From contig NZ_JAENIQ020000002.1 of the NCBI RefSeq assembly GCF_016595275.2, positions 62,001 through 126,000 on the forward strand: 64,000 bases of DNA, given 5' to 3'. Below the pieces are notes generated by a model. It was not told where the DNA came from. It was given only the letters and a program-made list of their open reading frames with translations, and did not search any database. The translations under genes and the position numbers were made by a program. Positions within the stretch are counted from its first letter, which is position 1, and each line of letters starts with the position of its first letter. Positions 6,657 to 46,078 of this stretch are shown here, one piece after another. This DNA comes from Corynebacterium pygosceleis (GTDB taxonomy: Bacteria > Actinomycetota > Actinomycetes > Mycobacteriales > Mycobacteriaceae).

Positions 6657-6675
6657 GACTCCCCGCCCGTCACAC

Positions 6676-6730: not shown

Positions 6731-6758
6731 TCAGACCGTGCAGAAAGGTGCCGTCCAC

Positions 6759-7252: not shown

Positions 7253-7271
7253 GGCCCACCCCGGTCCGGCG

Positions 7272-7302
7272 ACGCCGCCGTGCGGGGACGCGACGGCGGC
7301 GT
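7272..7302. terminator. Bidirectional hairpin between convergent genes
   Basis: ACGCCGCCGT (7272) and ACGGCGGCGT (7293) form a perfect 10-bp stem with an 11-base loop between the frameshifted Rossmann gene and ppm. There is no T-run on either side. Confidence 0.45.
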
Positions 7303-7305
7303 GAA

Positions 7306-8100: not shown

Positions 8101-8107
8101 GGGTGAG

Positions 8108-9676: not shown

Positions 9677-9688
9677 GACGGGCGGGGC

Positions 9689-10261
9689 TCAGCCCCTCGG
9701 GCGTTCGCCGCCGTCGTCGCCGCCCGAAGTGTGGCCTCCCCCACCGCCGCCGAGGAAGTCCTCGGGTTTCACGTCACTGCTCCACTGCTGGATCTCCCGG
9801 TCGTCGGGTACTCCCGCCCCGGAGTCCCGGGTGGGATCGTGCTCGACGACGAAGGACCCGTAGCTCGTCTGCGGACGGTACCGGTTGGCCGCCTCGAATC
9901 CGCGGACGCCGAGATCCTCGATCTTCCGGCGCATCTTGCGCGCGAGTATCCCGCGTACGACGGCTCTCGTCGGGGAGATGATCAGCAGCAGGCCGATGAT
10001 CGTGGTGATGAACCCCGGCATCGCCACCCCGAGGGCACCGGCGGCGACGAGTCCGTAGTCGCCGGCACCGCGTCCCGCGTTGACGCGTCCCCGGGACAGC
10101 TTCAGCGCGATCCGGCGCATCTCGACGGCGGCGAGCAGCAGGCCGCCGAAGAAGAAGAGCAGGAGCAGAAGCAGCGCCCAGCCGACCCCCAGCCATCTGG
10201 CGACCAGCCAGAACGCGAGGGTCTCGGTCAGGATGTACGGGATCGCGATGAAGATAGGCAC
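9689..10261 (-). CDS. fxsA: FxsA family membrane protein
   Basis: 190 aa. The pattern is that of FxsA: four hydrophobic stretches starting with IFIAIPYILTETLAFWLVA, then WALLLLLLFFFGGLLLA, GLVAAGALGVAMPGFITTIIGLLLII and a cytoplasmic tail. Its biochemical role is unknown; in E. coli overproduction relieves phage exclusion. The C-terminal tail is Gly/Asp/Ser-rich (FLGGGGGGHTSGGDDGGE). The GTG at 10261 lies seven bases after TACACT, so the operon probably starts with a leaderless message here. Confidence 0.85.
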   Translation of the reverse strand: MPIFIAIPYILTETLAFWLVARWLGVGWALLLLLLFFFGGLLLAAVEMRRIALKLSRGRVNAGRGAGDYGLVAAGALGVAMPGFITTIIGLLLIISPTRAVVRGILARKMRRKIEDLGVRGFEAANRYRPQTSYGSFVVEHDPTRDSGAGVPDDREIQQWSSDVKPEDFLGGGGGGHTSGGDDGGERPRG

Positions 10262-10268
10262 CCGTCCG

Positions 10269-10274
10269 AGTGTA
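10269..10274 (-). promoter_or_regulatory. -10 element for the fxsA-lnt-ppm operon
   Basis: TACACT on the minus strand, seven bases before the fxsA GTG. Confidence 0.45.
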
Positions 10275-10298
10275 CCGGCTCACCCCCGTGGACGCGGG

Positions 10299-30907: not shown

Positions 30908-31897
30908 CTAATGATGATACGCCGAGAGCCCTGCCCGGGCGCGTTCCGACACCTGCTCCGCCAGTTCCGGAGGACCGTCGACGATGACGCGGCCGCCCTG
31001 TCCCAGAATGAAGCGGATGAACCACTCCCGGGAGGACACCGGCATCCGGGCCCGGTAGAAACCGCCCGACGGCACCGCTTCCGCAGGTAACTCGAGAGGT
31101 ACGTAATCCGCCAGCCAGATCGCCTCCTCACTGATCCGGACCTCGGCGTGACAGGACACCGTCGTGAACGAGAACGGATCTTCGGAATCGAAGTGCAGCT
31201 CGTTCAGATGCGGGTCCCCCGATTCGCCGGTCCTGCGCAGGTCATGCATCCGGTCCGTCCGGAACGTCCGGTGGGTACCGGCCTCCCGGTCCCAGGCGGA
31301 GACGTACGTGTGGCCTTCGCGGGTGAAGACACGCGCGGGTACCGCCGACCGTCGCGTGGTGGTGTCACTCGCGGCACTGTAGTACCCGAAATCCAGGACC
31401 TCCCTCCCGTCCAGTGCGTCCCGGATGATCTCGAGAACCGTGGACGTGGAGGAACGGAACTCATCGGACACGACCGAATCCACGACGGCGACGGTGTCGT
31501 CCGGCACGATGCGCCGGAGCTTCGCGGCCGCACTGACCACGGATTCCAGGTCAGTGAGTCCACCGACGTTCTCGAGCGACTCGAGCGCCAGGAGAAGTGC
31601 CCCCGCTTCTGTCGGGGTGAGCCGGAGAGCCCGATCCATTCCCTGACTGTTCGTCACCCGTACCGAGGGATAGGAGTGATCGAGATCGACGAGGTCCCCG
31701 GGACCGAGTCCCGGCAGCCCGCAGCACCACAGTCGGTTGAGATCGTCCATGATCTGTTGCGGCCGGTAACCGAGGTCGCTGGCGGCCTCCATGATCGAAC
31801 GTCCCGGATGCGTCTCGAAGTAGGGCAGCAGATTCAGCATCCGCACAAGATCAACGAGACGATCCGAACCCCCGGATCGTTTCCCTCCCCGGCTCAC
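30908..31897 (-). CDS. pafC: WYL-domain regulator PafC
   Basis: 329 aa. An N-terminal winged helix (DRLVDLVRMLNLLPYFETHPGRS, then EAASDLGYRPQQIMDDLNRLW) is followed by the WYL domain (VLDFGYYSAASDTTTRRSAVPARVFTREGHTYVSAWDREAGTHRTFRTDRM). PafB and PafC together activate DNA-damage genes in mycobacteria, independently of LexA/RecA. The GTG start overlaps the pafB stop (GTGA), consistent with equimolar synthesis of a heterodimer. Confidence 0.92.
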   Translation of the reverse strand: MSRGGKRSGGSDRLVDLVRMLNLLPYFETHPGRSIMEAASDLGYRPQQIMDDLNRLWCCGLPGLGPGDLVDLDHSYPSVRVTNSQGMDRALRLTPTEAGALLLALESLENVGGLTDLESVVSAAAKLRRIVPDDTVAVVDSVVSDEFRSSTSTVLEIIRDALDGREVLDFGYYSAASDTTTRRSAVPARVFTREGHTYVSAWDREAGTHRTFRTDRMHDLRRTGESGDPHLNELHFDSEDPFSFTTVSCHAEVRISEEAIWLADYVPLELPAEAVPSGGFYRARMPVSSREWFIRFILGQGGRVIVDGPPELAEQVSERARAGLSAYHH

Positions 31898-32898
31898 GGC
31901 GTCTCCTCCCCCGGAAGGACCGCCCCGGCACCGTGACAGGACGCGGACGCGGACAGGGTCTCGATGACCGACCGGCGGATGTCGTCCGGTTCGGTGACGA
32001 TGACCTGGGGGGCGTGTGCGGCGGCGGTCCGGACGAACCAGTCCCTGTCGACGTTCCGCAGCAGATGAGAGTGATTCCCCAGGTACTCCGCGGCCCCGGT
32101 CAGTTCCCCGGCGGATCCCGGAGGTGCGGTGAAACGGACGTCGACGAGTTCACGGCCGCGTCTCAGTGCCTCCGCGACGAGGAGCTGGAGGTCGGCGTCG
32201 ACCGGTCGGACCACGGAGGCCGGCCCCGCCGCGACGATGTCGCGAACCCGGGTTATGCGGAAGCACCGCACGGCATCACGGTCGGTGTCATGACCGACGA
32301 TGTAGAGGCGGTCACGGTGGTTGACCAGTCCCCACACGTCCATCTGGCGGGTGGACACCTGGCCGACGGGACCCCGGGAGTAGGAGAATCTGATGCGTCG
32401 GCCCAGTCGGCAGGCGGTGAGGAGGGTGTCCAGTGTCTGTGGCGCCAGATGGGCTGTGTCGTTGACCATGCTGACCACCGGGACCGTACCCAACTCCCGG
32501 GAGGCTCCGGCTGCGGCGAGTTTCGTCCACCCGGAGCGGGCGAAGGCCGCGAGCTGTCGTCCGAGCCCCATGTCGCCCGCGAGGGCGAGGACGGTGGCCT
32601 CCCCGGGGGTGAAACTCAGCTCCGGCAGGGAGTATTCCTCGGACTGCAACCTGTATCCGGTCTGTCCGGAGTCCTCGGGGTTCGCGACGATCTCGATCGG
32701 TACGCCGGCGGCACGCAGAACACCGATGTCCCGCCTGAACATCTTCCGGGATGCCTCCTCACCGCGGTCGGAGTATCCGGCGACGTTGTCGCGCACCCAT
32801 GACGGGGTGAGCAACCTGCGGCCACCATTCTGTTCCGCGTCGAGAAACGCGAACGTCAGGTTGGTCAACCTCTCGAGGGGTTCATCCTTCACCGTCAT
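31894..32898 (-). CDS. pafB: WYL-domain regulator PafB
   Basis: 334 aa, the partner of PafC. HTH region ERLTNLTFAFLDAEQNGGRRLLTPSWVRDNVAGY and RKMFRRDIGVLRAAGVPIEIV. WYL region RRIRFSYSRGPVGQVSTRQMDVWGLVNHRDRLYIVGHDTDRDAVRCFRITRV. Its ATG overlaps the pafA stop (ATGA), so pup-pafA-pafB-pafC reads as one coupled operon. Confidence 0.92.
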   Translation of the reverse strand: MTVKDEPLERLTNLTFAFLDAEQNGGRRLLTPSWVRDNVAGYSDRGEEASRKMFRRDIGVLRAAGVPIEIVANPEDSGQTGYRLQSEEYSLPELSFTPGEATVLALAGDMGLGRQLAAFARSGWTKLAAAGASRELGTVPVVSMVNDTAHLAPQTLDTLLTACRLGRRIRFSYSRGPVGQVSTRQMDVWGLVNHRDRLYIVGHDTDRDAVRCFRITRVRDIVAAGPASVVRPVDADLQLLVAEALRRGRELVDVRFTAPPGSAGELTGAAEYLGNHSHLLRNVDRDWFVRTAAAHAPQVIVTEPDDIRRSVIETLSASASCHGAGAVLPGEETP

Positions 32899-34364
32899 GA
32901 CGGTGTCCCGTAGTCGGTGGCGTGGGCGTCCATGTAGGAGATGAGTTCATCGACCCGCGGGTCGTCAGCCGTGAAGGGGTCCCCGAGCTGCAGCACCTGG
33001 GGCTCCGGACGGTTGACCCGCAGACGCATCCAGTCGACGGTCACCGGTGCACCCAGTGCCCGCGCATGATCGAGGAACCGTCCGCGGAGCGCGGCGCGGG
33101 TGTCGTGGGGCGGGGTGTGGACCGCCGTTTCAATGGCCTCGTCCGTGGTCCACCTGGCGATCATTCCCCGGTTCACCAGGGTGGAGTACAGGCCCCTGCC
33201 CGGTCGGACATCATGGTAGGCGAGATCGATCTGCGCGAGCTTCGGATGACCCAGATCGACCCCCAGACGCTCCCGGTAACGGTTCAACAGCTTCCTCTTG
33301 ATGACCCAGTCGATCTCGGTGTCCACCGTGGAGAAGTCCCCCGTGTCCAGGGCGGTGACCGTCCTCCGCCAGAGATCGACGATACGGGCGAACTCCTCCG
33401 GAGGGGTGCCACCCCGCGACGGAGGACGGACGTCCAGCCACCTCTCCGCCGCTGAGCAGTACCGGTCCTGGAGCTCAAGTGCGGTGACGGTTCCCTCTCC
33501 GGTGAGCGGGAGGACGGTGCGTCCACGGGGATCACGGGCGATGTCACGGATCGCCGCCGCATCGTTGGCGAGTTCCACCTCCGGCATGGGGAAGCCCGCC
33601 TCGATCATCTCGAGCACGAGCAGTGCCGAACCGATCTTCAGTGCGAAAGTGGGTTCGGCCATGGACGAGTCCCCGACGATGACGTGCAGACGCCGGAAGC
33701 GCTCGGAGTCGGCGTGCGGTTCGTCCCGGGTGTTGATCATGGGTCGTGACCGGGTCGTCGCCGAGGACACCCCCTCCCACACGTGGTCAGCGCGCTGAGA
33801 GACACAGAAACCGGTGCCGTACCGCTCGCTCGGGCTGCCCGGGAAAGGACGGTAGATCTTACCCGCCCCGGCGATCAGCTGGCGGGTGATGAGGAAGGGC
33901 ACCAGTGCGAGGCCGAGCTTCTTCAGGGACAACCCGCGTCGTACGAGATAGTTCTCGTGGCACCCGTAGGAGTTACCGATCGAGTCCACGTTGTTCTTGA
34001 ACACGTAGACACGGGCGCCCTCCCCGAGCTCCTGTTCCACACGCCCGGCCAGACCGTCGACGACGACGTCCCCCGCCCTCTCGTGGTTGAGGAGCTGGGT
34101 GATCGACCGGCACTCCGCGGTCGCCCATTCCGGGTGTGAACCGACGTCGAGGTAGAGACGTGCGGCCGAGGACGTGAAGATGTTGGAGCTCGCGTATTTC
34201 TCCACCACGGGTCGGAACATCAGGCGTGCGAGCTCGTCCGGGATCATCCGACCCCCGTCCGCCGTCGTACAGGCGATCCCGTACTCCGTCTCGACACCCA
34301 TGATCCGGGTGGTCAGTGCCCCAGCGGGCTCCGCCGTCGTCGCTGCCGCGCCCGAGTCGGTCAT
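32895..34364 (-). CDS. pafA: Pup-protein ligase PafA
   Basis: 489 aa. ATP-dependent ligation of the C-terminal glutamate of Pup to substrate lysines. Carboxylate-amine ligase fold: RIMGVETEYGIACTT (metal and nucleotide-binding glutamate), RLYLDVGSHPEWATAECRS (catalytic Asp), VYVFKNNVDSIGNSYGCHENYLV, NTRDEPHADSERFRRLHVIVGDSSMAEP and LDLGH-like DLGHPKLAQIDLAYHDV. The start lies 5 bp after the pup stop. It lacks the extra Dop loop, which separates it from the paralogous dop. Confidence 0.96.
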   Translation of the reverse strand: MTDSGAAATTAEPAGALTTRIMGVETEYGIACTTADGGRMIPDELARLMFRPVVEKYASSNIFTSSAARLYLDVGSHPEWATAECRSITQLLNHERAGDVVVDGLAGRVEQELGEGARVYVFKNNVDSIGNSYGCHENYLVRRGLSLKKLGLALVPFLITRQLIAGAGKIYRPFPGSPSERYGTGFCVSQRADHVWEGVSSATTRSRPMINTRDEPHADSERFRRLHVIVGDSSMAEPTFALKIGSALLVLEMIEAGFPMPEVELANDAAAIRDIARDPRGRTVLPLTGEGTVTALELQDRYCSAAERWLDVRPPSRGGTPPEEFARIVDLWRRTVTALDTGDFSTVDTEIDWVIKRKLLNRYRERLGVDLGHPKLAQIDLAYHDVRPGRGLYSTLVNRGMIARWTTDEAIETAVHTPPHDTRAALRGRFLDHARALGAPVTVDWMRLRVNRPEPQVLQLGDPFTADDPRVDELISYMDAHATDYGTPS

Positions 34365-34369
34365 GGTGG

Positions 34370-34561
34370 CTACTGCCCGCCCTTCTGCACGTACGAGCGG
34401 ACGAACTCCTCCGCGTTCGACTCGAGGAGCCCGTCGATCTCGTCCAGGAGATCGTCGGTTCCGTGGGTGTCGATCAGGGACTGTCCCACGCCCTGGTCCA
34501 CCGTGTCGTCGTCACCGTGGTCGCGACCGCCACCGGCGTGAATCGTCGGGTTGCTTCCCAT
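34370..34561 (-). CDS. pup: Prokaryotic ubiquitin-like protein Pup (GGQ form)
   Basis: 63 aa. The N-terminal half is polar and disordered (GGGRDHGDDDTVDQGVG). The C-terminal coil LLDEIDGLLESNAEEFVRSYVQKGGQ is the Mpa/ARC-binding helix and ligation tail. It ends in Gly-Gly-Gln, so the side chain must be deamidated by Dop before PafA can use it; the C. glutamicum protein, as I recall it, ends in Glu. The ATG at 34561 follows GGAAGGG. First gene of the pup-pafA-pafB-pafC operon. Confidence 0.97.
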   Translation of the reverse strand: MGSNPTIHAGGGRDHGDDDTVDQGVGQSLIDTHGTDDLLDEIDGLLESNAEEFVRSYVQKGGQ

Positions 34562-35054
34562 GTGTCTCTTCCCTTCCTTGGAGATTCCCCGGGGATGTGC
34601 GGGACACCGGCCTCTCGACGTGTCCGGGCCGGGGTGGCCCGACCGCCCCGCGGTTCCGTTCAACCCAACTGTAGCGGCCGGTGACGGTGACCGTTCCGGA
34701 GACACGCTACCCGGAGCGGGACGAGAAGTGACCGCAGCCGGCGGATGCCCGACACCCCGGTGAAAGCTGAATGAAACCTGTGTTGAAGATGGGTTTAGAC
34801 CTTCATCTAATGCTGAGCTGCTTAGCCTAATCTATGTTAGATTGAGTGCTGGTAAGTGCCACCTAACCCGCCGTGGTTGGTTGGAGACCTTGTCGGTGTC
34901 AATTCCGACGAAAGAAATGTGCAGGTAAACAACCCTGTCGGCCGCAAGTGCAAGTACGTCGGTCGATGTCGGGGTTGGTTGCGGGTAAATCCCCACGGGG
35001 TGCACCGAACTTCATCCTCCACAAATACGTGAAGCAAACATAAGGAAAATCTGA
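34562..35054. other. Divergent intergenic region between pup and the first HtaA gene
   Basis: About 490 bp with no gene. It carries the pup promoter side on the left and a DtxR-like and palindromic cluster on the right, followed by about 200 bases of untranslated leader before the HtaA gene. Lower GC than the flanking coding sequence. Confidence 0.6.
34817..34843 (+). promoter_or_regulatory. DtxR-like box overlapping a perfect inverted repeat
   Basis: GCTGCTTAGCCTAATCTAT (34817-34835) matches the DtxR consensus at about 13 of 19 positions, mostly in the right half. It overlaps AATCTA-TGT-TAGATT (34829-34843), a perfect 6-bp dyad. TATGTT or TAGATT inside the cluster could be the -10, so binding would block transcription. 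Iron control is inferred. Confidence 0.5.
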
Positions 35055-38000
35055 ATGGCTCAATCAAGTCGCCGCATGTCCCGAGCAGGAGTCGCAGCGA
35101 TCGCCTGCCTCTCCCTCACCCTCTCCCCCCTCAGTCCGGTCGGCGTCGCGCTCGCCGACGCCACCTACACCAAGGGTGTGGAAGCCACCGACGGTGCCGA
35201 GCAGGTCTACGCCGCTGACACGGACGCCCTCCACTGGGGCGTCAACGAGATGTTCCGCGGTAAGGCGACCTCCTTCGAGGCCGCCGACGGTGCCCGCTAC
35301 GACGTCGAAGCGAAGCAGTTCGTCTTCCCCTACGTCTCCAAGGATGACGGGGCGAAGACCGTCAGCTACACCGGATCCGTCACGATCCTCGGCGAGTGCG
35401 AGGACGCCACGGATCCCTCGCGCGGCACCTGCAAGGTCGACGTGACCCTCACCGACCCGGTCGTCACCGTTGACGCCGACGGCACGAGCTCCGTCTCCGC
35501 CACCGTCCACTCCACCAGGGACGGCGCCGAGTGGTTCGGTCCCGAGACCGTCGAACTCGCCACCCTCGACTTCTCCGGTGCCAGGTTCAACAACAGCGAC
35601 ACCGACACCACCTGGGTCGACGTCGCCGCCACCGCCACCGACGCCGCGGCCGACAACGCCTTCCTCGGCACCGGCGCACTGGAGAACGTCGAGTTCACCT
35701 ATCCCGGAAAAACCGAGGAGAAGCAGAGCACCGAGCTCAAGCTCGAGAAGTACTCCACCGCGGAGACCGATCTGAAAATCGACGACCCCATGAGCATGAT
35801 CCAGTTCGATGACGGATCCGTGCTCCAGGTCACCGACCACTACGGCACCGCGAACGGTGCACTGTTCAATCCGGAACATTCGGAAGTCGTCGCCGTGAAC
35901 GGACTCGGTGTCCACATCGTGGCCGACACCGCCACCAGGACCCTGTACTGGGTCGACGAGAACAACGCCGTTCAGTCAGGTGTTCTCGGTGCTGACGGAA
36001 CCATCACCGCCATGACCAAGGTCGCCGATCTCGGGGACACCGGTCACGTGACCGGATTCGCCCGGCAGGCGGACGGCACTCTGGGCGCCGTCCTCATACC
36101 GACGTACCAGTCGGAACCCACCTACGCACGCATCGTCGAGGTCACTCCGGCCGGGGAAAAGACGGTCACGGAGCTCCCCTCCGCAAAGACCCTCCACCCC
36201 GAGATCGACGACTCAACCGGCTACTACACGGATGAAGCCTACGGTCTGTCATTCGGAGTCCACGACGGGCTCGCGGCGCTGCCCGACGGTACCTGGGTGT
36301 TCAACTACGATTACGAGATCTCGGGAAAGGGTGCCACCCCGATCCACATCACCCCGAAAGAGGACGTGAAGGCCTCTCTGTTCACCGGTGCCGAGAGCCT
36401 CTTCTCCGAGTACCAGGTTGTCAGGGGCGTCTACACCAACGGCGACATCGTCGCGTTCTACAACGGCCGTAGGGAGTCCGACGAGAAGAAGCACACGGTC
36501 GTCGGCTTCTACCGTTACGCCGACGGTGAACTGACCCCGATCTACACCAACACCGCCGCCGCAGACTTCGAGGTCGTCTCCGGTGTGGCCGCCGATGCCG
36601 ATTCCCTCTATGTTCTGAGCTCCGCGAACAAGACTCTGAACCGCCTGAGCATCGCTGACGGAACCGTCCAGGACAGTGTCGTCCTCGACGAGTCCACCGA
36701 GCTCTACAAGTACGGCAGCAGCAACTTCAACAACCTCATCTCAGCGGGCAACAAGCTGATCGTCACGGTCCCCAAGGACGGCGACGGATGGGGCGACAAC
36801 CACACCAGACTCGCGACCGTCACCCCGGCGATGTCCGGGATGACGGCTGATCCGAGCGTCGAGCGCGTCACCGTCGGTGACTACGACGACGAGACCAGCT
36901 ACGAGCCCATGGCCGACGCCACGGCCGTCGAAGCCACCGTCGGTACCGCCGCTGTCGCGCCTGCACCGACCTTCGACATGGTCGCCACCGACGCCACCGA
37001 GACCGATGCCGCACCATCGGGAGCAACCTTCTCGATCCCGGAGGCTGTCGAGGGGGCGACCGTCGGCGATGACGGCGCCGTGACGCTCACCGCCGTCGAC
37101 GCCCAGGCCGGCACCGATGTTCCGGTCACCGTCCTGGTCACCTACGCCGACCAGACCACCGACGAATACACCGTCACGTTCAAGGTCACCGCCGCGGCAG
37201 ATCCCACCGCCGACACCGGCAAGGTGTTCTACGGCAGGGACGCCCTCACCGTCACCGCCGGTGAAACCGGAACCGCCACACCGACCTTCGTCACCGATGA
37301 CGGAAACAAGGACGTCCCCACCGCCACCTTCGTCTTCGAGGGTGATGTTCCGGCGGGGGCGACGATCAACGAGAACACCGGCGTCGTCACCTACGCCCCG
37401 ACCGAGGCGACCGATGAGGTCGAGAACGTCAAGATCCGCGTCACCTTCGAGGACACGAGCACCCAGCTCACCGGTGTCTCGCTCAAGGCGGAAGCGGCCA
37501 CCCCGACCTACACCGAGCAGGTCTGGTACCCGGATTCCGTCACGGTCGCCCCCGGCGAGACGGCGACGAGCACGCCGAAGCTCGGCGGAATCGAGGCCGG
37601 TTCCGAGAAGAAGGACATCCCCGCGGACTTCAGCTTCGAACTCATCGAGGACATCGCCGGGGTCAGCATCGACGCCACCACGGGAACCATCACCTACGTG
37701 GCTCCCGCCGACGCCGCCGAGCAGACCATCTACCCGCGGGTGAAGGTCACCTTCCCCAGTGGCAAGACCCAGCAGACCGCCCCGGTCATCACCGTCAAGA
37801 AGGACGAGCCCGCCCAGAGCGACATCTACGTCTACTACGGCGGGACCGTGACCGTGGATCCCGGTCAGGAGGCGGTGGCGACCCCAGAAGCCGCTATCCC
37901 CACCCCCACCTACACCGTCGTCGACATGCCCGCTGGCACGACCTTCAAATTCGTCGACAACGACGACGAGGCACGTCCGGCAGGCATGACCCTGGACGAG

Positions 38001-38990
38001 AACACCGGCGTCGTCACCTTCACCCCCACCGAGGACCAGGCAGGACAGAGCTACTTCTTCTACGTCCAGGCCACCTACGGTGACGGAACCACCGCCCCCC
38101 GGCCCGCCGTCGGCCTGATCAAGGTCAACGAGGCAGCCACCCCGGATCCGGACGACAGCTCCATGTACAACCTGTTCTACCCGAACACGGATGTCACCGC
38201 CGGTGAGAGTGCCACCTCCGCGCCCTTCGCCGACATGGCCGGCACCGACGACATCGAGAACGGCGACATCCCGGCCGGGACGGTCTTCGAGCTCCCCTCC
38301 GCGGGCAACCCCGAGGGTGCCGTGATCGATTCCGGGACCGGTGTCATCACCTACACGCCGTCCGCCGACATGGAGACCGAGAACGTCGCGTTCTCCGTCA
38401 ACGCAACTTACGCTGACGGCTCAACCGACACCGCGATCGCGGTGTTCGTCGTCTCCGCCGCCGCACAGGAGATCGACGACAACGCGAAGTACACCCCGGT
38501 GTACGCCAACGGTGAGGTCAAGGCCGGTGGATCCGCTGCGGTCACACCGACCTTCGACATGTCCGACACCGACACCGTCGAAACCGGCACCGCACCGGAC
38601 GGCACGACCTTCGCGTTCGCCGGAACCCCGGATGACGGTTTCTCCATCGATTCCGTCACCGGTGAGGTCACCTACGAAGCAGCCGAAGACGCGGAGGACG
38701 CGACCGTCCAGGCCATGGTCACCGTGACCTACGCGGATGGAACCGGGGATGACGCCACCGTCACCTTCGCCGTGAAGGGTGCCGAGGACAAGACCCCGGC
38801 CCCGGGATCCTCGTCGATCGTCGACACATTCACCGGCAGTGCCGCCGGAGGATCGGCCGCGACCGGAATCATGGGTCTGCTTTCGGTCGGTGCCCTGTTC
38901 GGTGTCATCGCCGCGATCGTGCACTTCCTGAAGACGCAGATGCCCGGTGGTTTCCACCTCCCGCCCTTCCCCGGCCTGCCCCGGAACTAG
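35055..38990 (+). CDS. Large HtaA-domain surface protein with propeller-like region and six repeats
   Basis: 1311 aa. A Sec signal (AGVAAIACLSLTLSPLSPVGVALAD) leads to an HtaA domain (about residues 57-222): LHWGVNEMFRGKATSF, FVFPYVSKDD, VSYTGSVTILGEC, GTCKVDVTLTDPVVTVD, ELATLDFSGARFNN and a closing FTYPGKTE. HtaA domains bind heme in corynebacterial heme uptake. Residues about 235-610 have the spacing of a beta-propeller (HVTGFARQADGTLGAVLI, DGLAALPDGTWVFNYD, GVAADADSLYVLSS). Six Ig/Rib-like repeats of about 100 residues follow, then a tail helix (LLSVGALFGVIAAIVHFL). AAGGA precedes the ATG. Heme binding is by family; the propeller call is my reading of the pattern. Confidence 0.8.
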   Translation: MAQSSRRMSRAGVAAIACLSLTLSPLSPVGVALADATYTKGVEATDGAEQVYAADTDALHWGVNEMFRGKATSFEAADGARYDVEAKQFVFPYVSKDDGAKTVSYTGSVTILGECEDATDPSRGTCKVDVTLTDPVVTVDADGTSSVSATVHSTRDGAEWFGPETVELATLDFSGARFNNSDTDTTWVDVAATATDAAADNAFLGTGALENVEFTYPGKTEEKQSTELKLEKYSTAETDLKIDDPMSMIQFDDGSVLQVTDHYGTANGALFNPEHSEVVAVNGLGVHIVADTATRTLYWVDENNAVQSGVLGADGTITAMTKVADLGDTGHVTGFARQADGTLGAVLIPTYQSEPTYARIVEVTPAGEKTVTELPSAKTLHPEIDDSTGYYTDEAYGLSFGVHDGLAALPDGTWVFNYDYEISGKGATPIHITPKEDVKASLFTGAESLFSEYQVVRGVYTNGDIVAFYNGRRESDEKKHTVVGFYRYADGELTPIYTNTAAADFEVVSGVAADADSLYVLSSANKTLNRLSIADGTVQDSVVLDESTELYKYGSSNFNNLISAGNKLIVTVPKDGDGWGDNHTRLATVTPAMSGMTADPSVERVTVGDYDDETSYEPMADATAVEATVGTAAVAPAPTFDMVATDATETDAAPSGATFSIPEAVEGATVGDDGAVTLTAVDAQAGTDVPVTVLVTYADQTTDEYTVTFKVTAAADPTADTGKVFYGRDALTVTAGETGTATPTFVTDDGNKDVPTATFVFEGDVPAGATINENTGVVTYAPTEATDEVENVKIRVTFEDTSTQLTGVSLKAEAATPTYTEQVWYPDSVTVAPGETATSTPKLGGIEAGSEKKDIPADFSFELIEDIAGVSIDATTGTITYVAPADAAEQTIYPRVKVTFPSGKTQQTAPVITVKKDEPAQSDIYVYYGGTVTVDPGQEAVATPEAAIPTPTYTVVDMPAGTTFKFVDNDDEARPAGMTLDENTGVVTFTPTEDQAGQSYFFYVQATYGDGTTAPRPAVGLIKVNEAATPDPDDSSMYNLFYPNTDVTAGESATSAPFADMAGTDDIENGDIPAGTVFELPSAGNPEGAVIDSGTGVITYTPSADMETENVAFSVNATYADGSTDTAIAVFVVSAAAQEIDDNAKYTPVYANGEVKAGGSAAVTPTFDMSDTDTVETGTAPDGTTFAFAGTPDDGFSIDSVTGEVTYEAAEDAEDATVQAMVTVTYADGTGDDATVTFAVKGAEDKTPAPGSSSIVDTFTGSAAGGSAATGIMGLLSVGALFGVIAAIVHFLKTQMPGGFHLPPFPGLPRN
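36897..38790 (+). repeat. Six degenerate ~315-bp coding repeats (Ig/Rib-like)
   Basis: Each unit encodes about 100 residues with a recurrent core: VTAGETGTATPTF or a variant, an IPAG-T-F-F-L strand, a D-NTGVVTY-P strand and a late V-VTYADGTTD strand. The units have diverged in sequence, so the array is old or has been remodelled. Confidence 0.75.
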
Positions 38991-39035
38991 AAGTGGCATT
39001 CCGGCCCACAGAGTGGCCGGACGCTGATTGAACGG

Positions 39036-39083
39036 AACCGGCCCCGCCCCCCACTCACCAGTGGAGGCGCGGGGCCGGTTTTT
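39036..39083 (+). terminator. Rho-independent terminator of the first HtaA gene
   Basis: AACCGGCCCCGC (39036) pairs with GCGGGGCCGGTT (39069), followed by TTT. The loop includes a smaller CCACT/AGTGG hairpin. Confidence 0.85.
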
Positions 39084-39475
39084 CGCGTATCAACATCGCA
39101 CTCAGATCGGACGGACAAGGCGTGACACGGGGCGGGTGCCCCCGCACCGCGGAAAGTTGTGGGGCTGTCGGACGAACGCACCGGTCAGGCCGAACCCTGA
39201 TGGAAAATGAACCGGGAAAATCAATCCTTCGGTGGAGGGATACCTCCGTACTCTGACGCGATCGTCACGACGGTGGATTCCGACGATATTCGACGAAGTA
39301 GGTTCCTGGCGTCATCTGACGCTTCAACAGTCTTTAGTCAGCTGCAAAAATGATGGTGAGGTCTGGCTAACCTCTGTTACTGTTACCTGCATTCACCGGT
39401 GCAGGCACCCCGCACAGGCGGGGACCATGAACACCGGTGTTCACTTTCGAACATCAGATCCTTAAGGACATATCA
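39084..39475. other. Intergenic region between the two HtaA genes
   Basis: About 390 bp with no gene. Contains a DtxR-like box and a small CCCCGC-ACAG-GCGGGG-type hairpin (about 39409-39424) in the likely leader. AAGGA (39464-39468) lies seven bases before the GTG of the next gene. Confidence 0.55.
39357..39375 (+). promoter_or_regulatory. DtxR-like box upstream of the second HtaA gene
   Basis: TGAGGTCTGGCTAACCTCT matches the 19-bp DtxR consensus at about 13-14 positions and contains a GAGGT-N7-ACCTC dyad. The position about 100 bp before the start codon suits iron-dependent repression, which is inferred. Confidence 0.6.
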
Positions 39476-41887
39476 GTGCCCAGAACCTCTTCCCGCCGAA
39501 TCTCCCGAATCGGTCTCGCCGCCGTCACCGCGCTCACCCTGAGCCTCGGTGTCTCGGCCCCCGCCTTCGCCGGTGTCAGTGACACCATCGGCATCACCCC
39601 CAGGGACGGAGTCGCCCAGGAAGTCGCTGACTCGACCTCGGCTCTCGCCTGGGAGATCCGCGACTCCTTCAACAGTTACACCGGTGGGGCGACACACGTC
39701 CTCGACGGTGCGAAGCTCGTCGACGGTACCTTCCTGTGGCCCTACGAATCCACCGAGACCGACGCCGACGGCAACACCGTCGTGCAGTACAGCGGCACCG
39801 TCAACTACATGAAGTACTGCGAGGGAGATGAGCCGGTCCGTGGCGGTTGCCAGCTGGACCTGACCGTCGCCGACCCGAAGATCGTGTTCAACGCCGCGGA
39901 GGGTACCGGGACGCTCTACGCGACGGTCAACTCACGTGTCTACCTGACCGGCGCATGGTTGGGTGTCGAGGAGGTTCCGTTCGCGACCCTCGACTTCAAG
40001 GCCGGGCGCTACAACAACCAGGCTGACACCACCACCTGGACGAGCGTGGCGGGATCCCTGCTCCCGAAGGGGCAGGAGGCGTTCTCCAACTTCTACACCG
40101 GAAATCCCTACATCAGTTCCCTTTCCTTCTCCTACCCCGGGAAAACCGAGCTGAACTCCTCGGACGCTGAAGGCTACTCCCTCGCGGAGAGCATCCAGCT
40201 CCCGGTCAAGGCGGGTGGCTCCGAGCGTCTCTACGGTCTGTCCGACGGGTCGGTCCTGTACGTGACCAACTCCTACGGTGCGGGCAAGGGCGTCGTCGTC
40301 TCCCACGATCTCGGGACAGTCTCCGAGTCCTTCGATTTCGTGACCAACGGCGCCACCGACACCGCCTTCGACACCGCCACCGACACGCTCTACTGGGTGG
40401 AACCGAAGCAGGAACCGGCGATGGGTGTCATCCACAGCGCGCACGTGACCGCCTCCGGGATCGGCGCCGCCACAGAGGTCGCCACCGTTGAGGGCACCGT
40501 CACGGGATTCTCCCGGAATCCCTCCGACGGGACGCTCGGTGTCCTGCACCTGCTGCCCAAGGCCGAGGACTCGGTCGACGATTATCCCGCCCGTTTCACG
40601 ACGATCGCCGCCGACGGAGGCACGAGCACCGTGGAACTCCCCGAGGCCACCGAACTGTACCCCGACGTGGACGCCGAGGAGCACTACAACGAGGTGTACG
40701 GCTCCCCCTACGTGTTCAGCTCCACCTCGGGTCTCCGCGCACTCAACGACGGAACCTACATCTACGTCTACGACCACGGCGTACCCCGCACCGACGGAAC
40801 CACCCCGGGTGCGCTGCCCGTTCACATCAACCCCGCAGCCGCCGGTGTGAAGGCCACGTTGGTCGAGGCCTTCGCCCCCGCAGTCGAGGACCACAGCCAC
40901 AGCTTCCGTGGCGTCGCCACCGACGGTACGCACATCGGGATCTACAACGACTACAGCAACTCCAACGTCGCGTTCCTTAAGTACGAGAACGGCACGTTCA
41001 CCATGCCGTACCATGCCGCGCAGCCGGAAAAGCTCGTCTCCATCGCGGGCATGACCTTCAACTCGCAGGGCCAGGCGCTGGTCTCGTCCGCGAACAACCA
41101 CTTCATGGTCGTCGACCCGTCCACGGGCGCCGTCCTCCAGGACGCGTCACTCTCCGGCAACATGAAGGGGACCGAGAAGAACCAGCCGCTCGCCACCATT
41201 CTGGTCGGTGACGACGTGTTCATCGTCGACCGTCGTGAGATCAACTACACCGACTACGCGGGCATCCAGCGGCTCGAGCTCCCCGGGGCTGAAGGCCAGT
41301 ACAATCCCGCGATCGATGCGGTGACGATGGGCCACACCCCGGACAAGACGGATTCGAAGACCACCGCGGATTCCGTGGACGCCTACCTCGAGGAGAACAC
41401 CCTCGAGGTGACCGCCGGCGAGTCCGTCACCTCCGGCAAGGTCGTCTTCGATGAGACGACGACCACCGACAAGGAAGCTGCGGCGGCACCTGAGGGCACC
41501 GTGTTCAGCCTCGTCGCGGACGTCGACGGCGCATCGGTCGACGAGAAGACCGGCGGTGTCACCTACGTCGCTGCCGAGGATGCACCGACCGCCGAGGTCA
41601 CCGTTTCGGTGAAGGCCATGTTCAAGGACGGCAGCGAGGACATCGTCGAGCTGAAGGTGAAGGTCACTGAGGCCGCACCGACGCCGACCTCGACCTCCAC
41701 TCCGACCCCGACGTCCACGCCGACGCCGACCTCGACCCCGGCACCGGGTAGCAGCGGCAAGGACATCTTCTCCGGTCTCTCCGGAGGGAAGAACACCAGC
41801 CTGCTGGCCATCCTGTCCGTCGGTGGCGTCCTCGCGCTCATCGCCGGTCTGATCCACTTCATCAACACCACCCTGCTCCACCGCTAG
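39476..41887 (+). CDS. HtaA-domain surface protein with propeller-like region and one repeat
   Basis: 803 aa from the GTG at 39476 (AAGGA seven bases upstream). A Sec signal (RIGLAAVTALTLSLGVSAPAFAG) leads to an HtaA domain (ALAWEIRDSFNSYTGGATHVLDGAKL, FLWPYEST, VQYSGTVNYMKYCEG, GGCQLDLTVADPKIVF, FATLDFKAGRYNN, SFSYPGKTE). Next is a propeller-like region as in the upstream paralogue (SSTSGLRALNDGTYIYVYDHG, FRGVATDGTHIGIYND). One Ig/Rib-like repeat, a Pro/Thr/Ser stalk (41676-41745) and a C-terminal helix (LLAILSVGGVLALIAGLIHFI) follow. A paralogue of the preceding gene with five fewer repeats. Probably anchored by the tail helix, with no LPXTG motif. Confidence 0.8.
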   Translation: MPRTSSRRISRIGLAAVTALTLSLGVSAPAFAGVSDTIGITPRDGVAQEVADSTSALAWEIRDSFNSYTGGATHVLDGAKLVDGTFLWPYESTETDADGNTVVQYSGTVNYMKYCEGDEPVRGGCQLDLTVADPKIVFNAAEGTGTLYATVNSRVYLTGAWLGVEEVPFATLDFKAGRYNNQADTTTWTSVAGSLLPKGQEAFSNFYTGNPYISSLSFSYPGKTELNSSDAEGYSLAESIQLPVKAGGSERLYGLSDGSVLYVTNSYGAGKGVVVSHDLGTVSESFDFVTNGATDTAFDTATDTLYWVEPKQEPAMGVIHSAHVTASGIGAATEVATVEGTVTGFSRNPSDGTLGVLHLLPKAEDSVDDYPARFTTIAADGGTSTVELPEATELYPDVDAEEHYNEVYGSPYVFSSTSGLRALNDGTYIYVYDHGVPRTDGTTPGALPVHINPAAAGVKATLVEAFAPAVEDHSHSFRGVATDGTHIGIYNDYSNSNVAFLKYENGTFTMPYHAAQPEKLVSIAGMTFNSQGQALVSSANNHFMVVDPSTGAVLQDASLSGNMKGTEKNQPLATILVGDDVFIVDRREINYTDYAGIQRLELPGAEGQYNPAIDAVTMGHTPDKTDSKTTADSVDAYLEENTLEVTAGESVTSGKVVFDETTTTDKEAAAAPEGTVFSLVADVDGASVDEKTGGVTYVAAEDAPTAEVTVSVKAMFKDGSEDIVELKVKVTEAAPTPTSTSTPTPTSTPTPTSTPAPGSSGKDIFSGLSGGKNTSLLAILSVGGVLALIAGLIHFINTTLLHR
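41676..41745 (+). repeat. Pro/Thr/Ser-rich stalk-coding repeat
   Basis: Repeated CCGACGCCGACCTC-type units encode TPTSTSTPTPTSTPTPTSTP, a cell-wall-spanning stalk likely to be O-mannosylated; glycosylation is inferred. Confidence 0.7.
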
Positions 41888-41899
41888 TCCGGGAACATG

Positions 41900-41934
41900 A
41901 AGACCCCGCCGGGACAACGTCCCGGCGGGGTCTT
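41900..41934. terminator. Bidirectional terminator between the HtaA gene and dop
   Basis: AAGACCCCGCCGGGAC-AAC-GTCCCGGCGGGGTCTT is a perfect 16-bp stem with a 3-base loop between convergent genes. Confidence 0.9.
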
Positions 41935-41946
41935 CCCGTGTCCGCC

Positions 41947-43494
41947 TCAGCGACCGGGACCACCGATCAGATCGACTGTCGCGAGTCCGCGGTCATCGAC
42001 GAGCCGGAGAAGTTCCGCGGCGTCGGAGGCCCGGTCAAAGAGATCGCCGCACCTTTCACGGGTCAGACAATCGAGCTCGGGCATTCTCAACCTGTGGTGT
42101 CCGGTCACCCGATCACCGGACACCACCACCGTGTCCCAGCTCGCCGCGAGGACCTGGTCCGGCCAACGCCGCATGATCTCCCCACGGAAGAAGGCACGGG
42201 TGTCGGTGGGGGGTGTGAGCGCCGCCGTGTCAATCACCGTCGGATCGACGAAGGTCCGCATGCTGCCCCTCCGGACCAGTGCATGATGGAGACCGCGATC
42301 CGGATCGATGTCCGCGTACTGGAGGTCGACCAGTGCGATCTTGGGATGACCGATGTCGAGTCCCCGGTCCGTGAAGCGGCGGATGAGGGACCACTTGGCG
42401 GTCCAGTCGAGTCGGTCAGCGGTGCGTAGCGGATCGACGTCGAGATCGTCGAGAAGCTCCTCCGCCGTCCTCAGCACCAGCTCATCCGTGTCGCTGACGG
42501 CACTGCACCGGGAGAGGTATTCCCGCAGAATCGCGGTGGCCCGCAGTTCACGTCCGTCCGCCAACCGCAGGGAACTCCGGCAGTCGAGATCCCTGGACAC
42601 CTGTTTCACCGCGGCCACGGGGTCGGCGAGTCCGAGATCCGAGAACTCCTCCCCCGCCTCGATCGCGTCGAGAACCAGGGAGGTCAGACCGAACTTGAGC
42701 AGGTTCGACGTCTGGGACATGTTGGCGTCACCGATGATGACGTGCAGACGGCCCCAGCGGTCGGCGTCGGCGTGCGGTTCATCCCGGGTGTTCACGATTC
42801 CCCTGTTCAGGGTCGTCTCCAGGGACACCGGCTGTTCGATGTAGTCGGCCCGCTGGCTGATCTGGAACCCCGGTGACTCACCCCGTTCCCCCAGCCCGAC
42901 GCGTCCGGCACCGATCAGCACCTGTCGGGTGACGAAGAACGGGATGATGGCCCGGGTCAGGACATCGAAATCGGTGGAGCGGCTCCAGCGGTAGTTCTCG
43001 TGGCTGCCGTAGCTCGCACCCTTGCCGTCGACGTTGTTCTTGTACACCTTGAGCGCCGGACAGGGCGGCTGGCCCTCGATCACGCTCTCACCCCGGTCCG
43101 TGTACTGGTGAACCGCATCGACCGCCCTATTCATCACGAGGTCACCCGCGGCGTCGTAGATCACCGCCTGCATGGCGTCCGTCGTCTCCGGCGCGGAGTA
43201 CTCGGGGTGCGCGTGATCGACGTAGAACCGGGCTCCGGAGGACGTGATCACGTTGGCGACACCGACGGTGTTGGGGTCGATGACCGGTGCGGTGCGGAAC
43301 CTCCGGAGATCGAAACCCCGGGCGTCCCGGAGGGGCGACTCCTCGCCGAAGTTCCACCGGGTGCGCCGGAGGGATGCTCCGGTGGCGACGGCGTAGGCGA
43401 GCACGGCGTGGGTTGAGGTGATGATCGGGCTCGCCGTCGGGTCAGCCGGTGTCGCGATACCGTATTCGGTCTCTGAACCGATGAAACGGGGCAT
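41947..43494 (-). CDS. dop: Pup deamidase/depupylase Dop
   Basis: 515 aa. Converts the C-terminal Gln of Pup to Glu and removes Pup from substrates. Same fold as PafA: PRFIGSETEYGIATP, RFYVDHAHPEYSAPE (catalytic Asp), VYKNNVDGKGASYGSHENY, NTRDEPHADADRWGRLHVIIGDANMSQ and DIGHPKIALVDLQYADI. The Dop-specific loop is present (SPLRDARGFDLRRFR, then PVIDPNTVGVANVITSSG). Needed here because Pup ends in Gln. The neighbour arc starts 42 bp upstream of it on the same strand. ATG at 43494, preceded by a purine-rich AGAAAGAAG. Confidence 0.96.
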   Translation of the reverse strand: MPRFIGSETEYGIATPADPTASPIITSTHAVLAYAVATGASLRRTRWNFGEESPLRDARGFDLRRFRTAPVIDPNTVGVANVITSSGARFYVDHAHPEYSAPETTDAMQAVIYDAAGDLVMNRAVDAVHQYTDRGESVIEGQPPCPALKVYKNNVDGKGASYGSHENYRWSRSTDFDVLTRAIIPFFVTRQVLIGAGRVGLGERGESPGFQISQRADYIEQPVSLETTLNRGIVNTRDEPHADADRWGRLHVIIGDANMSQTSNLLKFGLTSLVLDAIEAGEEFSDLGLADPVAAVKQVSRDLDCRSSLRLADGRELRATAILREYLSRCSAVSDTDELVLRTAEELLDDLDVDPLRTADRLDWTAKWSLIRRFTDRGLDIGHPKIALVDLQYADIDPDRGLHHALVRRGSMRTFVDPTVIDTAALTPPTDTRAFFRGEIMRRWPDQVLAASWDTVVVSGDRVTGHHRLRMPELDCLTRERCGDLFDRASDAAELLRLVDDRGLATVDLIGGPGR

Positions 43495-43535: not shown

Positions 43536-45158
43536 TCAGACGGCGGTGTCGAGCACCCGGACACCGGTGACCCGGGCGCCGGGGCGTCCGGTGATCCGGG
43601 ACCAGGCGTCCGGGTTGGAGGTGTTCGGGAGATCCTCGTTCTCCGCGTTCTCGGCGTCGATGGCCCGGGCCAGGTGTTCGTCGGTGATCCCGTCGGTCCG
43701 GCCCGCGAGGTGGTCCTTGATGGCCTCCTTCTTCGCCCGGTCGACGATGTTCGCGATCATCGCCCCGGAGACGAAGTCGTGGTAGTGGAACACCTGGGTG
43801 CCACCGTCGAGGTAGGTCAGTTCCACGAACGGGCGTGGCCGGAACAGGTACTCCGCCGCATTGTCGATCAGTGTCGCGGGATCTCCGGCGACGGGCACGT
43901 TGTCGTGCAGAAGACGGTGGAAGATCTCCCGTGCACCGGTCCGGTCGGGGCGCTGCACGCGGATCTTGACGTCGAGGCGACCCGGACGGAGGATCGCCGG
44001 GTCGATGAGTTCCTCACGGTTCGTCGCCCCGATGACGATGACGTTGGACAGGCTCTCGACGCCGTCGAGTTCGGCCAACAGCTGCGGGACGACGGTGGTC
44101 TCCATGTCGGAGGACACCCCCGTGCCCCGGGTCCGGAAGATCGACTCCATCTCGTCGAAGAAGACGATGACGGGCCGCCCCTCACCCGCGAGTTCCCGGG
44201 CACGTTCGAAGATGAGCCGGATCTGCCGCTCCGATTCGCCGACGTACTTGTTCAGCAGCTCGGGGCCCTTGACGTTGATGAAGTAGGAGCGGGAGCCGTC
44301 CCCGATCCGTTCCGACAGTGAGTTGGCGACGGCCTTGGCGATCAGCGTTTTACCGCAGCCGGGAGGACCGTAGAGCAGGACACCCTTCGGTGCCCGGAGA
44401 TTGTAGGTGCGGTACAGCTCCGGGTGGGTGAAGGGCAGCTCCACGGCGTCCCGGATCCGCGTGATCTGGTCGTCCAGTCCCCCGATGTCCGCCCAGGTGA
44501 CGTCCGGGACCTCTTCGAGCGCGAGTTTCGCGACCTCGGTTTTCGGGATGATCTCGAAGGCGTAGCCCGCACGGGTGTCCACGAGGAGGGTGTCCCCGGG
44601 GCGGGGCGGTTTCCCGCCCGTGAGCAGAGGGCCGGCGAGTCGGACGAGACGTTCTTCCCCGGTGGTGTCCACGACGAGTGCACGATGGTCCTCCAGAACC
44701 TCGGTGACACCGGCCATCTCGCCGGAGTCGTCGAAGCCGCACACCTCGACGACCTGGGCTCCCTCACCGAGACGGACCCGGGCACCGGGGACTAGCTCGG
44801 AGCGCTCGATCAGGGGGCTCACGGCCAGCCGCATGCGCCTGTTGGAGGTGAACACCTCGGCGCAGGTCTCCTCCAGCCCGGGAGTCGGTTCGAGGTAGGT
44901 CCCGTAGGTCGACGGTGGGGCGGCCAGCTGTTCGAGCTGTTCGTTCAGCGTCGCGAGTTTCCGCCGGGAGGCGGTGAGAAGCTCCACCAGTTTCGTGTTG
45001 CGGGTGGCCAGCTCACGGTTGTCCCGACGGGCACGCCGGAGTTCCGCCGCCGTGTCCCCGGATCTTGTGGCGGTGACCTCGGGTGCGGGAATGGGCCCGG
45101 GTCCGGTGGCGGGCGGCGCGTGGCGGTCCGGTTCGGGGGTGTTGGCGGAGGCACTCAT
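43536..45158 (-). CDS. arc: AAA ATPase ARC/Mpa, Pup-dependent unfoldase
   Basis: 540 aa. An N-terminal coiled coil binds Pup ([44 protein letters not shown]), then come tandem OB domains ([33 protein letters not shown]). The AAA domain has Walker A GPPGCGKT, Walker [12 protein letters not shown], sensor [19 protein letters not shown]. The C-terminus is VRVLDTAV and lacks the GQYL tail that docks mycobacterial Mpa on the 20S proteasome; no prcB/prcA is beside it. It probably unfolds pupylated proteins on its own, as proposed for ferritin in C. glutamicum. TAGATT lies eight bases before the ATG at 45158. Confidence 0.95.
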
Positions 45159-45166
45159 GGAACTCC

Positions 45167-45172
45167 AATCTA
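45167..45172 (-). promoter_or_regulatory. -10 element of arc
   Basis: TAGATT on the minus strand, eight bases before the arc ATG at 45158, so arc-dop can be transcribed from its own promoter. Confidence 0.4.
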
Positions 45173-45241
45173 GCCCACCGTGGCGGGGCGGGTCCGAGGT
45201 GAGGCTCGTGCGACCCGGCGCGCGGGCAGCAGCGGGCTCTG

Positions 45242-46078
45242 TTATTTCCGGGCGCGACGCTGCGGACGGGGTGCGACCGTACCGTCCGCGAGGCGTCGTG
45301 CCCAGACGAGGAAGGCGGTGTGTGCGTTCATCCGGTGTTCCGGTCGTGTGGCGAGCCCCTCGACCTTCCATTCGCGGACGAGGGACTCCCAGGCACGGGG
45401 TTCCGTGAAGCACCCCTGTTTACGTATCCCCTCCATGACCTTCATCAGCTGCGGGACGGTGGCGACGTAGGTCATGAACACGCCGCCGGGGAGCAGGAGC
45501 CCACGGACCGCGTCGAGGCACTCCCACGGCTCGAGCATGTCGAGGATGATGCGGTCGACCGGTCCCCCGATATCGTCCACCGTGACCTCCCTGAGGTCAC
45601 CCAGACGGGGGGACCACGTCGGGGGCCGCCCGCCGAAGAACTCGTCGACGTTCGACTCGGCGTAGTCGAGGTGGTCCTGCCGGATCTCGTAGGAGATGAG
45701 TTCGCCGGACTCACCGATCGCCCGCAGCAGGGTCATCGACAGGGCGCCTGAACCGGCACCGGCCTCCAGCACCCGGGCCCCGGGGAAGATGTCACCCTCT
45801 ATGAGGATCTGCGCGGAGTCCTTCGGGTAGATGACGGCCGCACCCCGGGGCATCGACAGAACGTGGTCGACCATGAGATGGCGGAAACAGAGGTAGAGCC
45901 CGCCCTGGGAGGATTCCACCACCGTCCCCTCGTGCCGTCCGATGATGTCGTCGTGCGCGATGCCCCCCTTGTGCGTGAAGAAGCTCTCCCCTTCCCTGAG
46001 CACGATCGTGAAATGGCGACGCTTCGCGTCGGTGAGCTGGACGCGGTCGCCAGCCTGGAAAGGTCCGGAATAGGCCAT
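45242..46078 (-). CDS. trmI: tRNA (adenine-58-N1)-methyltransferase TrmI
   Basis: 278 aa. SAM-dependent methylation of A58 in the T-loop. N-terminal beta-rich domain [23 protein letters not shown], then [10 protein letters not shown], the SAM motif [19 protein letters not shown] and catalytic [26 protein letters not shown]. The ATG at 46078 gives the normal length; an upstream extension to 46279 is a low-quality frame. It precedes arc-dop on the same strand, in the order I recall for C. glutamicum. Confidence 0.93.

Follow-up and report, generated by a model that had tools for sequence, protein, structure and literature searches.

The hemophore ChtA of Corynebacterium diphtheriae contacts heme through a Ser, an axial Tyr, a Lys-Tyr helper, a Cys pair and a propionate Tyr of its CR domain, and a 2025 paper describes ChtA and ChtC as confined to pathogenic species, three of which are named (PMC12494546). 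When iron is limiting, C. glutamicum mutants defective in pupylation show poor growth, and ferritin is one of the pupylated proteins of this species (PMC8223512). Here, we analyzed a 64-kb stretch of Corynebacterium pygosceleis DNA (contig NZ_JAENIQ020000002.1, positions 62,001 to 126,000; hereafter the window). In this window, the pupylation cluster is split. Two genes encoding CR domains, htaA1 and htaA2, are located on the + strand between pup-pafA-pafB-pafC and dop-arc, both on the - strand.

This arrangement is real, old and conserved, and its most likely history is an ordinary one. The new point of the locus is a conserved CR domain without heme contacts, that of htaA1. Taken as a whole, we consider it rather probable that htaA2 serves in heme capture, as predicted, and is likely controlled by DtxR, that htaA1 likely has a different, conserved role, and that both genes go back to an old inherited insertion.

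CR domains with and without heme contacts

Both CR domains pass the PF04213 cut-off of 24 bits (scores in Table 1) and hence belong to the CR/HtaA domain family. The htaA2 protein comprises a signal peptide (assigned by eye), a ChtA-type CR domain, a predicted beta-propeller, one RibLong repeat and a C-terminal membrane helix (predicted at residues 777-800). By sequence, the nearest solved structure to its CR domain is the CR domain of ChtA (PDB 9o0k, E-value 7e-24), which is also the top fold match of the htaA2 CR model (template-modelling (TM) score 0.83, root-mean-square deviation (rmsd) 2.6). The initial annotation had considered both genes as heme-capture genes. For htaA2, the presence of the ChtA-type contact residues in the sequence supports this proposal. 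Of the 39 family rows, 32 have kept the Ser, the axial Tyr and the propionate Tyr, including all 11 htaA2 or single-gene proteins, and the Cys pair of the loop is found in all 39, htaA1 included. In addition, the ratio of nonsynonymous to synonymous rates (omega) of the htaA2 CR domain is 0.04-0.12 across four sister species, as compared to 0.055-0.068 for dop, indicating purifying selection. From the contact residues and the DtxR-like site (see below), we predict that htaA2 is an iron-repressed, surface-held heme-capture protein.

The ChtA-type helper Tyr was observed in 31 of 39 proteins (39 rows from 30 genomes), those of C. marambiense and C. meridianum among them. This distribution suggests that hemophores of the ChtA type also occur outside the diphtheria group.

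The htaA1 protein contains a signal peptide and a C-terminal membrane helix (both assigned by eye) that frame a CR domain, a predicted beta-propeller and six RibLong/YPDG repeats. No description of a propeller in HtaA proteins, nor of HtaA genes in the pup-dop gap, turned up in the accessible parts of the literature searched, and the word propeller is absent from the main text of PMC12494546. Judged by the axial Tyr, the Ser and the propionate Tyr, the sequence of htaA2 fits the ChtA type of hemophore whereas that of htaA1 does not. In the four orthologues (window and three sister species), the axial Tyr is replaced by Lys, the Ser by Met or Val, and the helper pair by Gly-Glu. The propionate Tyr is also gone in all four; the aligned column contains Phe, a less sure assignment as a Leu may be the counterpart. 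A large protein search, which scored only the 7991 candidates with most words in common, retrieved eight htaA1 proteins at an E-value of 1e-10 or better, namely the window's own and seven relatives. Two of these relatives are unnamed proteins, 49% and 59% identical. Lys occupies the axial place in all eight. With the axial Tyr and the Ser lost in all eight proteins, the heme-capture role first proposed for this gene is not supported.

Loss of contacts could mean that htaA1 descends from a hemophore and is now in decay, with no function left for its CR domain. The missing heme contacts would fit such a decay, as would the broken third htaA1-like copies of two sister species (see below). However, among the compared parts of htaA1, conservation is highest in the CR domain, which is present in all seven relatives found and 78-96% identical there, as compared to 38-72% for the propeller. 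Its omega of 0.13-0.22 among the four sister orthologues indicates purifying selection. Near identity and purifying selection argue that this is not a decayed domain, and we regard decay as very unlikely. Instead, the sequences point to a repurposed domain, likely with a different conserved role. Lacking an iron ligand, htaA1 would bind something else via its CR domain, either a protein partner or another ligand. The CR fold can still be recognized in htaA1, with a TM score of 0.68 and an rmsd of 4.3 to 9o0k. One point tempers this reading: the htaA1 model is of modest quality (predicted local distance difference test 77, predicted TM score 0.55). If the htaA1 CR domain does bind a non-heme ligand, the locus would be a natural experiment in hemophore repurposing, with a heme-competent paralogue adjoining as control.

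The axial Tyr is also replaced elsewhere in the window genome. Two adjoining propeller-type HtaA genes (L134:5164-7398 and 7977-10430, on C2) have Val and Ile at this place.

Gene order and history of the pup-dop gap

The initial annotation had placed a pair of HtaA genes between pup and dop, and this was borne out, with coordinates right to within a few hundred bases (Table 1). Pup, PafA, Dop and Arc all score above the respective NCBIfam thresholds, and the frames of pup, pafA, pafB, pafC, dop and arc are intact. In the three sister species, pup is 86-90% and dop 92-93% identical. The distance between dop and pup is 7.4 kb in the window, so that the two genes are not adjacent as in the Pup-ARC arrangement. 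An AAGGA stretch precedes the htaA2 start at 39476. Because htaA1 is divergent from pup and htaA2 convergent with dop, the HtaA genes share no transcript sense with the pupylation genes. Terminator-like hairpins follow both HtaA genes. The one 3' of htaA1 rests on folding compared with shuffles, as a pattern scan for terminators did not list it.

Table 1 Features of the locus (window coordinates)
Feature	Position	Strand	Remarks
pafC	30908-31897	-	gene order read in window
pafB	31894-32898	-	gene order read in window
pafA (Pup ligase)	32895-34364	-	TIGR03686 667 bits; directly after pup; no prcBA between
pup	34370-34561	-	63 amino acids, C-terminus GGQ; TIGR03687 71.3 bits, PF05639 63.5 bits
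Candidate pup -10 region	34666-34675	-	block GCTACAGTTG identical across all four sister species; putative -10 role
Weak DtxR-like site 5' of htaA1	34817-34835	.	11.7 bits, third of window; in pup-htaA1 gap
DtxR-like site beside htaA1 start codon	35025	.	12.3 bits, second of window; AT-rich; 1/300 shuffles reach score
htaA1	35055-38990	+	1311 amino acids
htaA1 CR (HtaA) domain	35226-35654	+	PF04213 54.3 bits; axial-Tyr position is Lys70 (35262-35264)
htaA1 predicted beta-propeller	35721-36842	+	residues 223-596; seven blades suggested by matches
htaA1 RibLong/YPDG repeats	37194-38777	+	six stretches, outer limits approximate; PF18957 230.9 bits, NF038186 215.6 bits
Terminator-like hairpin 3' of htaA1	39036-39080	+	-37.5 kcal/mol, z -5.0, 0/200 shuffles as good; TTTTTC follows
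DtxR-like site 5' of htaA2	39357-39375	.	TGAGGTCTGGCTAACCTCT; 14/19 consensus letters; 14.2 bits, best 19-mer of 64 kb
htaA2	39476-41887	+	803 amino acids; longer frame opens 39437
htaA2 CR domain	39641-40129	+	PF04213 107.4 bits; Ser, axial Tyr (codon 39677-39679), Lys-Tyr-Cys...Cys loop, propionate Tyr
htaA2 predicted beta-propeller	40163-41293	+	residues 230-606 of 803; seven blades suggested by matches
Terminator-like hairpin between converging htaA2 and dop	41900-41934	.	-38.7 kcal/mol, z -7.0, 0/200 shuffles; partly in pattern scan
dop (depupylase)	41947-43494	-	TIGR03688 697 bits
arc (proteasome-type AAA ATPase)	43536-45248	-	TIGR03689 754 bits; longer frame 43539-45413 scanned

The long leader of htaA1 was considered as the site of a known RNA. 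This was rejected, as Rfam gave no gathering-level match in the window, and none between pup and htaA1 even at E-values up to 1; the predicted fold of the segment 34815-34900 is not more stable than those of shuffled sequences (z -0.87). A scan of 34300-42100 for sigma-70-like promoters found none.

A match to Dop was obtained in 241 of 242 Corynebacterium genomes, and dop and pafA are on one contig in 240. The compact pafA/pup/dop/arc order, which the initial annotation stated for C. glutamicum, is the rule in the genus (228 genomes). HtaA genes occupy the gap in 11 genomes, and another gene does so in one, G113. Between matches, the dop-pafA gap measures 236-639 bp in the compact genomes, 2.6-10.9 kb in the 11 HtaA-positive ones and 1.8 kb in G113; these values were read by eye from position tables and are about 0.1 kb too long in one subset, measured to the Dop-model match inside PafA. 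The census leaves out G189, in which dop was not matched, and G157, in which dop and pafA are on separate contigs. G109, G168, G204, G212 and G236, with dop or pafA in pieces, were counted as compact as the neighbouring pieces adjoin. The several pieces in G109 (C1:1313227-1315930) and G236 (C1:1298099-1300732) could reflect decayed genes or assembly errors. A Dop-Pup-PafA fusion, considered from open-frame figures of 1033-1102 amino acids, was rejected, as dop, pup and pafA are separate frames in the four regions concerned (L137-L140).

The HtaA-positive genomes are that of the window (G000), G008, G011, G012, G025, G041, G055 (C. freiburgense), G103 (C. marambiense), G114 (C. meridianum), G190 and G196. 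All 11 wide gaps hold HtaA genes, each divergent from pup and convergent with dop. Comparison of gene order across relatives, which the initial annotation had called for, revealed the same pair in the three sisters and one HtaA gene at the same place in seven more distant species. The pair is intact in the window and in its sisters G103, G114 and G008, whose htaA1 is 78% and htaA2 76-81% identical to the window's. In the seven others, the single gene is 31-38% identical to htaA2. Apart from the cluster around the two-CR gene, six of these seven species have no further gene with an HtaA domain, whereas G012 has one more. A third htaA1-like gene is located between htaA1 and htaA2 in two sisters. 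It is frameshifted in C. meridianum (L121:7050-9369), and only a short remnant of it is left in C. marambiense (L122:7563-7760); no match to this copy was found in the window or in G008.

A conserved cluster that contains large genes for surface proteins resembles an island, and the chtA-chtB locus of C. diphtheriae is flanked by insertion sequence (IS) elements (PMC6701010). A recent horizontal island in the window's species could therefore be envisaged. However, three sisters carry these genes at this very site with 76-81% identity, and seven more species have homologues there, which refutes a recent arrival; in addition, no tRNA gene was found within the 64-kb window. We consider this scenario hardly credible.

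The distribution of the insertion was mapped on species trees built from 71 of the 240 loci, 60 of them compact or other ones picked by hand. In the Dop+PafA+Arc tree of these 71 loci, the HtaA-positive species form two neighbouring groups, with 3 state changes. A mixture-model tree of 68 loci, obtained after removal of three long rows, requires 4. In both cases, none of 500 label shuffles gave a number as low. G165, which lacks the gene and is nested among HtaA-positive species, pairs with G011; a single clade of the 11 HtaA-positive species and G165 is not rejected (approximately unbiased test, p-AU 0.121). Hence, one gain and one loss are allowed by the trees.

A tree of HtaA proteins was built from 39 proteins of 30 genomes, which comprise the best loci from the HtaA search, with at most four candidates scored per genome, and the window's own loci; the sisters' other copies and one short fragment were left out. 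All 15 pup-dop proteins fall in one branch with 100/100 support, together with four paralogues of the window genome and two G113 proteins. The remaining 18 proteins, from other Corynebacterium genomes, fall outside this branch. With all 15 site proteins in one strongly supported branch, an old, vertically inherited insertion is the most likely origin.

Two results weigh against so simple a history. Firstly, the 11 HtaA-positive species alone are rejected as one clade (p-AU 2e-5), so that at least one loss or a second gain is needed. Secondly, the pup-dop proteins are not one exclusive group on the HtaA tree (5 label changes, and none of 200 bootstrap trees with one). HtaA genes of other loci are nested within this set, so that genes may have moved between sites or been captured repeatedly.

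The window genome contains ten HtaA-domain matches: four in a presumed hmu cluster, two at pup-dop, and four propeller-type genes at three other loci. The hmu cluster was recognized by its two-CR gene and neighbours, and the designations HmuT, Ftn and aminotransferase are assignments by eye. From the nesting on the HtaA tree, we read the pup-dop gene as the probable founder, from which copies at other places arose later in the window's clade. In addition, the window genome carries tandem single-CR genes (C1:199833-200336 and 201043-201546, both 121.9 bits), a pairing also observed in G114 (both 114.3 bits). These equal scores suggest a recent duplication or gene conversion.

To account for the gene order, no functional link is needed, as one old insertion that was vertically inherited suffices. 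The pup-dop gap would then be a tolerated landing site, with nothing that ties the inserted genes to pupylation. The clustering of the HtaA-positive state on the species tree is consistent with this view, and so is G165, which keeps only the cluster around the two-CR gene. Moreover, the G113 gap contains a 410-residue aminotransferase-like frame (L136:5671-6903, named by eye), showing that the gap accepts other genes, and the pupylation cluster is broken at another place in G046, with about 2 kb between dop and arc (L157, about 6273-8322). On the other hand, the single-gene species have kept the gene at the exact place despite their large divergence from htaA2, although plain inheritance predicts the same. 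Overall, this is the account that we somewhat favour.

DtxR-like sites and the question of a link to pupylation

The DtxR consensus TWAGGTWAGSCTWACCTWA has no site within 3 mismatches in the window, and a weight matrix was therefore used. It was derived from 22 published C. diphtheriae sites, footprinted and predicted ones mixed, with the tox operator omitted (self-scores 11.2-23.7 bits). The initial annotation had both HtaA genes preceded by DtxR boxes. This holds for htaA2, whose site is the window's best, and less well for htaA1, whose two sites are weaker (Table 1). None of 300 shuffles of its stretch reaches the score of the htaA2 site, and the three sisters have counterparts (TGAGG....CTAACCTCT) of 12.3, 11.9 and 9.1 bits. 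The block of the htaA1 site at 34817 is strong in G008 (21.8 bits) and scores 10.8 and 11.9 bits in the other two. As a positive control, the best site of the presumed hmu locus of the window genome is positioned just 5' of the two-CR HtaA gene (19.2 bits). Two other HtaA loci of this genome have sites of 19.7 and 15.5 bits, the latter preceding the first L134 gene. These matches indicate that htaA2 is probably under DtxR (iron) control. Several observations argue the other way: the weakness of the 11.7-bit htaA1 site, a pup-htaA1 gap in one sister whose best score is reached by 18 of 300 shuffles, poor sites in two single-gene species (30/300 and 23/300 shuffles as high), and a site of only 8.3 bits at the third other HtaA locus of the window genome.

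Shared iron control could also couple the two systems. The gap would then be an iron node, where DtxR bound between pup and the HtaA gene raises both surface heme capture and pupylation, with iron release from ferritin, when iron is short. The C. glutamicum data, with pupylation needed on limiting iron and ferritin targeted (PMC8223512), provide the rationale. Consistent with this, the window genome has a ferritin-family gene (Ftn-like by eye) and no match to the proteasome core (PF00227) anywhere. In clade B (G041, G055, G190, G196, G025), DtxR-like sites of 13-18 bits are located within 200 bp of pup, and all five species have at least one of 10 bits or more at this distance. Sites of 12.1-16.5 bits or nearby recur in G055, G196 and G025 (L126, L127, L129) at about -180, -140 or -135, and -59 to -57 relative to the start codon of pup; in G041, a site of 11.7 bits is found at -39. 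Three related compact genomes, G139, G225 and G148 (L137, L155, L181), show a 15.6-16.9-bit site 68-73 bp before pup, from which iron control of pup could be independent of HtaA in these species.

However, in none of the four species of the window's clade does any DtxR-like site within 200 bp of pup reach a score of 0 bits. In this clade, the candidate pup -10 block is about 140 bp from the htaA1 DtxR-like site. Sites of at least 10 bits near pup are not significantly more frequent in HtaA-positive genomes (5/11) than in compact ones (8/60; Mann-Whitney p 0.10), and DtxR control of pup as a general rule is thus unsupported by this comparison. Those clade-B sites found at -180 and -135 could act on the HtaA gene only. 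Furthermore, pup and dop are not mentioned in the main text of the C. diphtheriae DtxR regulon paper (PMC13001254), nor in that of the C. pseudotuberculosis iron-limitation transcriptome (PMC6701010), and the 228 compact species run pupylation without HtaA at the site. Gene orientation and hairpins also speak against co-transcription. The functional link suggested in the initial annotation thus meets HtaA genes of opposite orientation, with terminator-like hairpins of their own and a DtxR-like site about 140 bp beyond the likely pup promoter, and we judge it improbable. The preferred reading remains an inherited insertion that is a bystander to pupylation.

Proposed scenario and comparison with described systems

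According to our scenario, an ancestor of the HtaA-positive species would have acquired one ChtA-type gene in the pup-dop gap. Vertical inheritance of this gene would have followed, with one loss or more. Within the clade of the window, the gene would have been copied in place, giving two genes and a third one, broken in C. meridianum, and also copied elsewhere in the genome. As a result of the insertion, the pupylation genes would be transcribed as two separate units, pup-pafA-pafB-pafC and arc-dop. By analogy with C. diphtheriae ChtA, the CR domain of htaA2 is predicted to take up ferric heme via a tyrosinate and to pass it towards the hmu uptake system, while the propeller and the Rib part would hold this domain out from the membrane.

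A bolder version can be imagined. Here, htaA1 would found a heme-less class of CR domains, in which the Tyr became Lys and the CR domain stayed nearly identical for a new ligand or partner while the propeller changed. The gap would then act as an iron node, at which heme capture at the surface is connected with the release of ferritin iron through pupylation. This combination is conceivable, though we hold it to be rather unlikely. In any case, species with a heme-capture gene inside the pupylation cluster provide, with their compact relatives, a set in which the tie between pupylation and iron can be tested; so far, this tie comes from C. glutamicum ferritin.

Like ChtA and ChtC of C. diphtheriae, htaA2 has an axial Tyr, a Ser four residues before it, a propionate Tyr, and a Lys-Tyr-Cys loop with a second Cys. 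The CR domains of ChtA and htaA2 are 35% identical, and their TM score extends over 173 columns. The likeness would include the putative C-terminal membrane helix, and it includes the DtxR-like site; that the Cys pair forms a disulfide is assumed from ChtA. In the comparison with ChtA, which covers the CR domain, htaA2 stands out by its predicted propeller and Rib repeat. It is also located in the pup-dop gap rather than in a chtA-chtB locus.

HtaA and HtaB of the hmu cluster share the PF04213 domain, and the window genome itself carries a two-CR gene with neighbours taken as hmu. However, the hmu HtaA differs by its two CR domains, a helper His instead of Tyr (PMC12494546) and its linkage to hmuTUV. 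Finally, the window resembles the Pup-ARC cluster of the C. glutamicum type, in that pup, pafA, pafB, pafC, dop and arc are present and no proteasome core was found. It differs in being cut in two by HtaA genes of the opposite strand, as are 11 of the 240 genomes, the window's included.

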